Source: a virus. Taken from it: 48,993 nucleotides of DNA. This document shows positions 7,486 to 11,677 of the stretch, piece after piece. The number at the start of each line of letters is the position of its first letter. Within the stretch, counting starts at the first letter, position 1. The position numbers were made by a program, and so were the translations under genes. The stretch is from IMG/VR virus record IMGVR_UViG_3300036770_003171, positions 1 through 48,993 of that record. One strand, given 5' to 3'. The notes below the pieces were generated by a model that did no database searches, was not told the origin of the DNA, and saw only the letters and a list, made by a program, of their open reading frames with translations.

Positions 7486-7563
7486 CTGGGTGTAGCTCAG
7501 TCAGGTCAGAGTACCGCACTTGGAATGCGGGGGCCGCTGGTTCAAATCCAGCCATCCAGACCA
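7486..7563 (+). tRNA. tRNA-Pro (anticodon TGG)
   Basis: The 7-bp acceptor CTGGGTG/CATCCAG closes with one G-T pair. The anticodon arm CCGCA/TGCGG has loop CTTGGAA, so anticodon TGG. The T arm GCTGG/CCAGC has loop TTCAAAT, and CCA is encoded at 7561-7563. Position 37 is A, whereas proline tRNAs nearly always have G there, so identity or decoding could be unusual. Confidence 0.85.
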
Positions 7564-7672: not shown

Positions 7673-7711
7673 GGCCGCTGGATTTCCCCGATCCAGCGGC
7701 CCTTGTCTTTT
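7673..7711 (+). terminator. Rho-independent terminator
   Basis: A perfect 11-bp GC-rich stem (7673-7683 with 7691-7701), a 7-base loop and then CTTGTCTTTT. It closes the Gp49/66-tRNA unit just before the next transcription unit. Confidence 0.8.
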
Positions 7712-7733
7712 GTCGGGAATGTCTGTAGGTTGT
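7702..7733 (+). promoter_or_regulatory. Late-gene upstream motif, copy 1
   Basis: These 32 bases match 9897-9928 at 29 positions. Both copies contain TTTTGTCGG, ATGTC and TGTAGGTTGT and lie about 25-30 bases before a gene. It is probably a promoter or activator site; no sigma-70 spacing is seen. Confidence 0.5.
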
Positions 7734-9896: not shown

Positions 9897-9928
9897 CTTG
9901 CCTTTTGTCGGTCATGTCTGTAGGTTGT
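9897..9928 (+). promoter_or_regulatory. Late-gene upstream motif, copy 2
   Basis: This is the second copy of the 32-base motif (see 7702-7733). It stands 29 bases before the ATG at 9958, which was probably the original endolysin start before the HNH gene arrived. Confidence 0.5.
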
Positions 9929-9957
9929 AGGCCACTGTTCAACTGACGGCGGCCGAC

Positions 9958-9987
9958 ATGAGCGAATTTCAGCGATCACTGGCGAAA
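9958..9987 (+). repeat. Thirty-base captured endolysin 5' end
   Basis: These ten codons encode the same peptide as 10514-10543. Five codons differ, all at the third position (AGC/AGT, CAG/CAA, CGA/CGT, TCA/TCG, CTG/CTA); none changes an amino acid. Confidence 0.95.
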
Positions 9988-10521
9988 TGTACGCCTCTCG
10001 ATAGCGCGGTATTAAGCTGTTCTATCGACTATGCGCTGAAACGCCAGTCTGCGGCTTTGTACGTCGCAGCCGGCGGGCGCGAGGGCGCGGAACTTTGCAC
10101 GGTCTCAGGGTGCCCTAATGTGCGCCTCTCGCTCGGGTTCTGTAACGCGCACTACTTACGGGCAAAAGCCGGGCGCGACATGCTGGCTCCGTTGCAGCAC
10201 AGAAGCCGGAAGCTATCTTGCCAGGAGTGCAGCGCGCCAGTCGACGGCAAAGGCGGCTGGGGGTTGTGTAAACCGCACTACCGCAAGAAGCGCCGCGATA
10301 TCATCAAGCGGGAGTGCGTTAAGTTTCTAGGGGGCGCGTGCAGCGAATGTGGCGGTGTTTTCCCTCTGGCTGTCTATGACTTTCACCACGTTGACCCCGC
10401 AAGCAAAGACGGAGACCCGTCGACTTTGTTCGACAACGCGTCACTGGCCGTAGTCGCAGACGAAGTAGTGAAGTGTGAGCTTCTTTGCGCCAATTGTCAC
10501 AGGATCAAACACAATGAGTGA
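9958..10521 (+). CDS. HNH homing-type endonuclease inserted at the endolysin start
   Basis: This protein has 187 residues. Its first ten residues, MSEFQRSLAK, equal the endolysin N-terminus; the sequence then changes abruptly. Zinc-type clusters follow (CTVSGC with CNAH; CQEC with CKPH; CSEC with CANC) around the catalytic DFHHVDPASKDG and the final CANCHRIKH, typical of free-standing phage HNH enzymes. It uses the endolysin's leader and start codon, and ends at TGA 10519-10521 inside the rebuilt endolysin 5' end. It probably cuts endolysin genes of related phages that lack the insertion. Confidence 0.9.
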   Translation: MSEFQRSLAKCTPLDSAVLSCSIDYALKRQSAALYVAAGGREGAELCTVSGCPNVRLSLGFCNAHYLRAKAGRDMLAPLQHRSRKLSCQECSAPVDGKGGWGLCKPHYRKKRRDIIKRECVKFLGGACSECGGVFPLAVYDFHHVDPASKDGDPSTLFDNASLAVVADEVVKCELLCANCHRIKHNE

Positions 10522-11335
10522 ATTTCAACGTTCGCTAGCGAAAGTGCTCGTGCATGAGGGTGGTTTCGTTCATCACGCAAAAGATCCTGGGGGTGCCACC
10601 AACCAGGGCGTCATCCAGCGGACCTATGACGCCTTCCGGGACAATCTCGGTGTTCCGCGCCAGAGCGTGAAGCTCTTGTCCGCGCAAGAGCGCGACATGA
10701 TCTACCGCCAGCGCTACTGGAACCTGATCAAAGGCGACCAGCTTCCCGCCGGAGTGTCCTACGTGGTCTTCGACGGGGCCGTGAACTCCGGCGTATCGCA
10801 GTCCGTAAAATGGCTGCAGCGCGCTTTGGGCGTCAAGGCCGATGGTGTCGTCGGCCCCGCGACGATCGCCGCGGCGCAGAATTTCGGCGACCACGATCTG
10901 CTGATCGAGCGGATCATCGAACGCCGCTTCGCATTCCTGAAAGCCCTGAAGACATGGCCGACTTTCGGCCGCGGCTGGACGAGCCGCCTGAACGGCGTCA
11001 AGGCTATCGGCATGGCGTGGGCCAAAGGGGCCGACGCGCCGCAGTTCATCATGTCGGACGCCGGCAATGCCCGCGCGCTGCTGTCGGACGCCCGCAAACC
11101 CCCGTCGACCGCAGCCGGCGATACAGCCGCAGGTGCTGGTGGTATCAGCGCCCTGATCGCGCAGACCCAGGAGCAGCTGACACCCTATGTCGAGATCGGC
11201 TTCGTCGCCAAGGCCGCTGCGATCCTGACGATCGCCGGCATGATCGTCGCAGTCGGCGGTCTGGCTTATCGCCTGTGGGCCAAGCGGAAAGCCGCGAAAC
11301 TGGCTGACGCGCTCGATATCGGAACCGAGGCATGA
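10514..11335 (+). CDS. Endolysin, GH108-like with C-terminal membrane anchor
   Basis: This protein has 273 residues. The N-terminal domain has the GH108-type EGG motif with the presumed catalytic Glu at residue 15 (VLVHEGGFVHHAKDPGG). A peptidoglycan-binding segment follows (WLQRALGVKADGVVGPATI). The C-terminus holds a membrane span (about residues 235-253, AAAILTIAGMIVAVGGLAYR) and a basic end, unusual for a soluble endolysin. It would cleave peptidoglycan, perhaps from the inner membrane. Codons 1-10 are a synonymously recoded copy of those used by the HNH gene. The spanin gene starts in its stop codon. Confidence 0.88.
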   Translation: MSEFQRSLAKVLVHEGGFVHHAKDPGGATNQGVIQRTYDAFRDNLGVPRQSVKLLSAQERDMIYRQRYWNLIKGDQLPAGVSYVVFDGAVNSGVSQSVKWLQRALGVKADGVVGPATIAAAQNFGDHDLLIERIIERRFAFLKALKTWPTFGRGWTSRLNGVKAIGMAWAKGADAPQFIMSDAGNARALLSDARKPPSTAAGDTAAGAGGISALIAQTQEQLTPYVEIGFVAKAAAILTIAGMIVAVGGLAYRLWAKRKAAKLADALDIGTEA

Positions 11336-11586
11336 ACCCGTTCCTGATAAAGGTCGGTCTGGTCGCCATCATCGCATTCGGGTTGACCTATGTCGGCTAC
11401 CAGAAGGGCCGGTATGACGGCCGGATCGAGCAATTGGTCAACAGCGTCGAGGCGTACCAGGAACGAGGAAGGATCGACAATGAAACCCGGGATCTTGGTG
11501 CTTACGATCTGTGCCTTCGCATTGGCGGGATGCAGCCAGACTGCGAACAATTGCGCGGGGTGGTCGAAGCCCCCGAAGCCGAATAA
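11332..11586 (+). CDS. Rz: Inner-membrane spanin (Rz-like)
   Basis: This protein has 84 residues: one N-terminal membrane segment (about residues 6-22, IKVGLVAIIAFGLTYVG), then a polar, helical periplasmic part. Its position right after the endolysin, with a lipoprotein gene nested in another frame, is the classical Rz/Rz1 arrangement. With the lipoprotein it would bridge inner and outer membranes and fuse them at the last lysis step. It is shorter than enterobacterial Rz. The ATG overlaps the endolysin stop. Confidence 0.75.
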   Translation: MNPFLIKVGLVAIIAFGLTYVGYQKGRYDGRIEQLVNSVEAYQERGRIDNETRDLGAYDLCLRIGGMQPDCEQLRGVVEAPEAE

Positions 11587-11677
11587 CCCCGTCCGCATGG
11601 TGGTCGAGGAAGAACAACTCAGCCGCTGGATCGTGTCGACCGATGCGTTCGGTCAGGCACAGAACTGCTGGAAGTGA
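11480..11677 (+). CDS. Rz1: Outer-membrane lipoprotein spanin (Rz1-like), overlapping Rz
   Basis: This protein has 65 residues with a lipoprotein signal: MKPG, a hydrophobic run, then the lipobox ALAGC with the lipid-bearing Cys at residue 18. The mature part begins SQTANNC and contains a Pro-rich stretch (WSKPPKPNNP), as in Rz1. About half of the gene lies inside the Rz gene in a different frame. AAGGA precedes the ATG. It should span the periplasm together with Rz. Confidence 0.8.
   Translation: MKPGILVLTICAFALAGCSQTANNCAGWSKPPKPNNPVRMVVEEEQLSRWIVSTDAFGQAQNCWK

Follow-up and report, generated by a model that had tools for sequence, protein, structure and literature searches.

The window, by which we mean the whole 48,993-nucleotide stretch that was analysed (IMG/VR virus record IMGVR_UViG_3300036770_003171), belongs to a virus related to Rhizobium phage RHph_N65, with 72% nucleotide identity in the matched parts of the endolysin-to-portal region. 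It contains an HNH endonuclease gene whose end overlaps the start of an endolysin gene, and the features of this locus are listed below.

9897..9957, plus strand: apparent original lysis-gene leader, which now serves the HNH gene (comparison with the L094 and L261 leaders)
9958..10521, plus strand: HNH endonuclease coding sequence, 187 aa (matches to PF01844 and phrog_3106)
9958..9987, plus strand: endolysin start captured as codons 1-10, which now encode the HNH N-terminus (repeat of 10514-10543)
9988..10513, plus strand: inserted HNH body, from the captured start to the rebuilt start (HNH-less relatives have no counterpart)
10501..10504, plus strand: candidate Shine-Dalgarno sequence AGGA of the endolysin, within the HNH coding sequence (sequence reading; putative function)
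10514..10521, plus strand: overlap of HNH and endolysin genes, in which the last HNH residues and the stop come from the endolysin start codons (sequence)
10514..10543, plus strand: apparently rebuilt endolysin start, synonymous with 9958-9987 (codon-usage P=0.0002)
10514..10597, plus strand: 5' stretch of the endolysin gene with atypical (AT-ending) codons (GC3 by 14-codon bins)
10514..11335, plus strand: GH108 endolysin with N-acetylmuramidase and PG_binding_3 domains and a C-terminal membrane segment (PF05838, PF09374, phrog_315)

The downstream gene begins at the ATG at 10514 and shares its first 8 nt with the end of the HNH gene. It is a GH108 endolysin, having both a Glyco_hydro_108 domain (PF05838, E 1.1e-24) and a peptidoglycan-binding domain (PF09374, E 6.1e-10), and it also matches phrog_315. 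By its motifs the 187-aa product of the upstream gene is a predicted HNH/zinc-ribbon nuclease. It matches PF01844 (23 bits against a cut-off of 21.4) and phrog_3106 (E 1.4e-21), and the DFHH and LLCANCHR..H (HNH/zinc-ribbon) residues are invariant across 17 relatives. Comparison with the closest sister HNH, in L261, gave a dN of 0.19 and a dS of 1.44, showing that the ORF is under purifying selection. The predicted structure has a mean pLDDT of 84.8 with few low-confidence stretches, one of which is the captured N-terminus (mean 58 over residues 1-10); in the family alignment these ten residues reach beyond the N-terminus of most members. Foldseek comparison with the PDB returned HNH matches, all of them weak. 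The HNH family is present in L261 and has no member in near relatives of the phage or in Rhizobium phage N65, and the inserted body (9988..10513) is without counterpart in HNH-less relatives. A free-standing ORF with this presence/absence polymorphism beside a conserved gene points to an intronless homing gene. Only four weak matches to the family occurred in 397 Hyphomicrobiales genomes, and thus no prophage source was found.

The HNH gene opens with the first ten codons of the endolysin. The upstream copy (9958-9987) reads ATG AGC GAA TTT CAG CGA TCA CTG GCG AAA and the downstream copy (10514-10543) ATG AGT GAA TTT CAA CGT TCG CTA GCG AAA. Both encode MSEFQRSLAK (10/10 aa and 25/30 nt identical), and the five differences (AGC/AGT, CAG/CAA, CGA/CGT, TCA/TCG and CTG/CTA) all fall at synonymous third positions. 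The change from AGC to AGT gives rise to the TGA that closes the HNH frame (AAT GAG TGA). The original prediction had described this repeated opening with the endolysin restarting at 10514, which matches base for base, as well as the restriction of the differences to five third positions and the source of the HNH stop, both of which were confirmed. Chance can be excluded as the origin of the repeat, because the window has a start-agreement score of 9 and scores of at least 5 are reached by only about 0.06% of mismatched pairs of HNH starts and downstream genes. An assembly artefact is unlikely since unrelated contigs have the same architecture, among them L291 and L295, two haplotypes from different samples that are 94.6% identical over 3.27 kb. 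As HNH residues 1-10 are endolysin sequence, the locus also carries a warning for annotation.

Two independent draws from the codon usage of this phage most often differ at 5/10 codons, so the two copies are no more alike than unrelated encodings of the same peptide would be. The downstream copy has improbable codons under this usage (P=0.0002), and the upstream copy is closer to it (P=0.04). Codons 7-8 of the upstream copy (TCA CTG) are found in distant HNH-less relatives such as phage 7-7-1, L184 and L187. On both counts the downstream copy looks to be the one that changed. To that extent the proposal that the endolysin was rebuilt is upheld, but the codon anomaly, described below, outruns the ten repeated codons. 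An uninterrupted version of this endolysin was also expected in relatives lacking the HNH gene, and none was found; the nearest endolysins are 69% and 66% identical in amino acids. A degenerate pattern for the intact start had no match in IMG/VR, a search with the leader motif matched only in the contig of L094, and blastn in phage records gave no close HNH-less relatives of the other HNH-bearing endolysins. The state of the gene before insertion therefore rests on distant relatives.

Over 61 bp the leader of the HNH gene has 93% identity with that of L094, a phage with a terminase 88% identical to that of the window; in L094 a different (GH19-type) endolysin begins at the same point. In L261 this leader continues directly into the ATG of the HNH gene, which has the same position, and homology picks up again past the diverged first codons of the HNH gene. 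Because the leader is common to an HNH-less and an HNH-bearing phage and ends at the same ATG, the comparison supports placing the HNH gene on the original lysis-gene start and leader. That the HNH gene uses the leader of the endolysin, as had been proposed, is borne out.

The window has two copies of a 32-bp motif (including GTCGGTCATGTCTGTAGGTTGTAGG or a close variant), at 7702-7733 and 9897-9928, with 91% identity. The second copy precedes the HNH start, and the motif also precedes the L094 lysis gene and the L261 HNH gene; it is possibly a phage promoter. Among phages with terminases that are 57-88% identical, GH19 and GH108 types replace each other as the lysis gene upstream of the terminase (L094:4139-5125, L063, L067, L075, L082 and L090). 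RHph_N65 has a different HNH-type gene directly before its terminase start (L045:4067-4630), which was rejected as a parallel case: it has no captured terminase codons and is unmatched by the HNH profile of the window.

Intron ORFs are commonly of the HNH type and in frame with the upstream exon, and the upstream ten codons could in principle be exon 1 of a group I intron encoding the HNH protein. This is very improbable here. Rfam scans of the window and of 17 related loci matched neither a group I nor a group II intron, and the downstream gene is complete alone and repeats the supposed exon 1; an intron or intein was rejected on these grounds. The earlier description of a homing element needing neither intron nor intein stands as regards the missing intron RNA and the occupied original start and leader, although such homing is already an established class (PMC2988022).

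HNH profile searches of IMG/VR yielded 126 distinct family members. A GH108 endolysin start is overlapped by 21 of them, and another 21 are located where a 5'-3' exonuclease gene (phrog_107) begins. The nested arrangement recurs in at least 21 other phage sequences, and every HNH/GH108 pair overlaps (21/21). At many loci the endolysin ATG lies within the final HNH codons, and the HNH stop comes from endolysin codons in another reading frame. Capture is in most members confined to the leader and start codon, and ten-codon capture is a rarer outcome. The leader and start codon of L299 match those of the HNH-less L003, and those of L273 match the HNH-less L003, L010 and L032, in each case with few or no further codons in common, while L261 has no visible codon capture. 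The starts of L262, L273 and L294 (MKEN, MKDN and MKAN) may be captured codons or, since they align with the native HNH N-terminus, part of the HNH gene itself. With the leader and start taken from the target and the stop from endolysin codons, the element appears to lack a start region of its own and often a stop of its own.

Captures of at least six codons were found in two more independent cases, making three with the window. In L291/L295, 19-21 codons were captured, and L291 (21 codons) has 9 synonymous and 2 non-synonymous differences. In L053, an exonuclease locus, codons 1-6 were captured and codons 2-6 are all synonymously changed; codons 4-6 of its upstream copy (CTC ATA GAT) are those of the start in an HNH-less Vibrio phage, and the downstream copy differs. 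Judged from these alignments, the element in the window, in L291/L295 and in L053 carries a replacement gene end, diverged in DNA and conserved in protein, at the 5' end.

Divergence of the repeats in 3/3 of these captures could reflect stability only. A 30-bp direct repeat flanks the HNH gene in the window, and identical copies around a 526-bp insert would be deletion-prone, so that lineages with diverged repeats alone would keep the insert and the recoding would be unrelated to the nuclease target; engineered drives likewise guard against recombination between rescue and native sequences (PMC7968924). We regard this as unlikely to be the explanation. The codon anomaly is also present in HNH-bearing endolysins with little or no repeated start, and repeat avoidance is therefore not its sole cause.

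Taken in 14-codon bins, GC3 of the window endolysin starts at 0.43 and 0.36 and then rises to 0.93, the unusual codons extending to about codon 28 (10514-10597) and stopping abruptly there. The GC3 deficit, defined as GC3 of codons 2-14 minus GC3 of the gene body, averages -0.25 in HNH-bearing endolysins (18 clusters) and -0.067 in HNH-less ones (n=169; P=2e-7, or P=6e-7 with the window omitted), and it wanes over about 25 codons. Other genes that overlap an upstream gene have a mean of -0.049 (n=122; P=6e-7 against HNH-bearing endolysins), so gene overlap alone is insufficient to produce the deficit, and this control rules out translation coupling as the sole cause of the codon bias. The same 122 genes, which have no such codon shift, weigh against the idea that the early codons of an endolysin must be AT-ending and weakly structured when its start lies within another gene upstream. 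Predicted folding over 65 nt does favour that idea (-9.1 kcal/mol for the rebuilt start and -17.9 kcal/mol for the original), but the difference is explicable by the differing sequence upstream of the ATG alone, and tuning of translation seems to us a distinctly improbable account.

The GC3 of the HNH genes themselves averages 0.39, and the deficit is compatible both with a rebuilt start under selection for difference from the target and with a 5' piece brought along by the AT-richer HNH gene. Under the latter, the HNH gene and about 84 bp of endolysin 5' end would have come from a diverged phage, the upstream ten codons would be a leftover of the recipient, and the synonymous differences would have built up as donor and recipient diverged in the ordinary way, without selection for immunity. 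The anomaly running to codon 28, beyond the repeat, and a tract GC3 similar to that of the HNH gene are what such an origin would leave, and mitochondrial homing ORFs do carry foreign gene ends, with DNA 64-81% identical to the native end and nearly identical proteins (PMC3630166). Among HNH-less endolysins, however, whose N-terminus is variable, ten identical residues never coincide with five or more synonymous differences: at least 5 such differences were seen in 0/59 identical-residue pairs, and ten identical residues were shared by 0/193 pairs with at least 5 differences, these pairs being non-independent. Nor do close HNH genes go with a clearly greater similarity of endolysin 5' ends than of endolysin bodies. 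A donor-borne start is thus a possible but somewhat doubtful explanation by itself, and donor divergence and selected immunity may both apply.

The interpretation that we favour, and hold to be reasonably probable, is that a free-standing homing HNH gene takes the start of its target and supplies a diverged replacement. Members of the HNH family would settle on the 5' ends of GH108 endolysin and 5'-3' exonuclease genes, bringing little beyond the coding body and borrowing the leader, ribosome-binding region and start codon of the target; in the window nine further codons would have been taken besides the start codon. The element would end within a second target-gene start that overlaps its own last codons. 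With a rebuilt start encoding the same protein in different DNA, an intact allele would remain cuttable and convertible and the occupied allele functional, the latter being probably a poor target, and the two starts would no longer recombine efficiently. From the arrangement and codon pattern we infer that the HNH protein would cut near the 5' end of the endolysin gene, that its gene would be inherited with a bias and that the rebuilt start would be immune; the sequence divergence is consistent with such resistance, which the original prediction had also proposed. Counted against this interpretation are the weak matches to solved structures, the reliance on distant relatives for the state before insertion, the rarity of ten-codon capture, which is not visible in L261, and the low-GC3 tract, which resembles the base composition of the HNH gene (GC3 0.39) as a donor-borne start would.

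The closest precedent appears to be the mitochondrial homing genes with diverged host-gene 3' ends, the fungal mORFs such as those of Allomyces atp6 and Glomus atp6/atp9/cox2/nad3 (PMC3630166). In these, as in the window, a homing gene lies at the end of an essential gene, and a second version of this end, with diverged DNA and a nearly identical protein sequence, completes the gene. The mORFs duplicate the 3' end and leave the native end downstream, partly unexpressed, whereas in the window it is the 5' end that is duplicated, the native start is still used, as the endonuclease start, and the host is a phage. The T4 Seg and Mob enzymes resemble the window in lacking an intron or intein, in their patchy distribution among relatives and in lying beside a functionally critical phage gene, but they either sit between genes, their cleavage sites being hundreds or thousands of bp distant, or interrupt a gene, and the available part of PMC2988022 describes no captured and rebuilt gene start for T4-type enzymes. 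In T4 mobA/gene 60 an HNH homing gene lies inside an essential phage gene, as here, and a nearby sequence change is thought to protect from cleavage while translation still yields the right protein (PMC5009743, PMC3014915); the protection there is a 50-nt translationally bypassed insert instead of a synonymous change, and the host gene is split. HomeR (PMC7968924) shares with the window a nuclease element inserted in an essential gene alongside a recoded segment of that gene that restores function, but it is engineered, Cas9-based, recoded in the 3' part and used in insects. A keyword search of open-access papers returned no report of captured and rebuilt phage gene starts.

On this comparison we judge the window to be a natural analogue of engineered home-and-rescue drives. 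In the fuller form of this analogy, which we put forward tentatively as a little short of an even chance, the element would act as a natural home-and-rescue drive with a conserved 5' coding target, a captured native start and a replacement recoded by selection to escape the nuclease; the exonuclease loci would perhaps have an alternative escape through a CTTTAG insert and in-frame stop-hopping. The locus bears on how free-standing homing genes can enter essential coding sequence and yet leave the host gene functional: here a whole phage family seems to invade by taking over the native start and providing a diverged replacement, the logic of an engineered rescue drive. The testable prediction is that the original start would be cut and the rebuilt start spared, and the sequence signature can be used for finding further cases.

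At least 11 HNH-bearing exonuclease loci from about six lineages (L266, L268, L270, L274 (2225-2290), L275, L276, L279, L325, L046, L264 and L272) have, in the exonuclease gene, an invariant in-frame CTT TAG CTN directly after a conserved DADF/DADI motif, where their relatives read DADIL-VYR. TAG is apparently not reassigned, because it also terminates the same exonuclease gene in some phages. We read it as a probable 6-nt insert that is skipped by in-frame stop-hopping from CTT to CTN, with readthrough as the alternative; no natural case of in-frame stop-hopping was known to a 2016 review (PMC5009743).

Elsewhere in the window, a membrane protein ORF lies at 11332-11586, and a lipoprotein-like ORF with a LAGC lipobox (11480-11677) starts inside it in another frame; the two are likely a spanin pair of the Rz/Rz1 kind. 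A tRNA gene (67.9 bits) lies at 7486-7560, a few kb upstream of the tail fibre gene.
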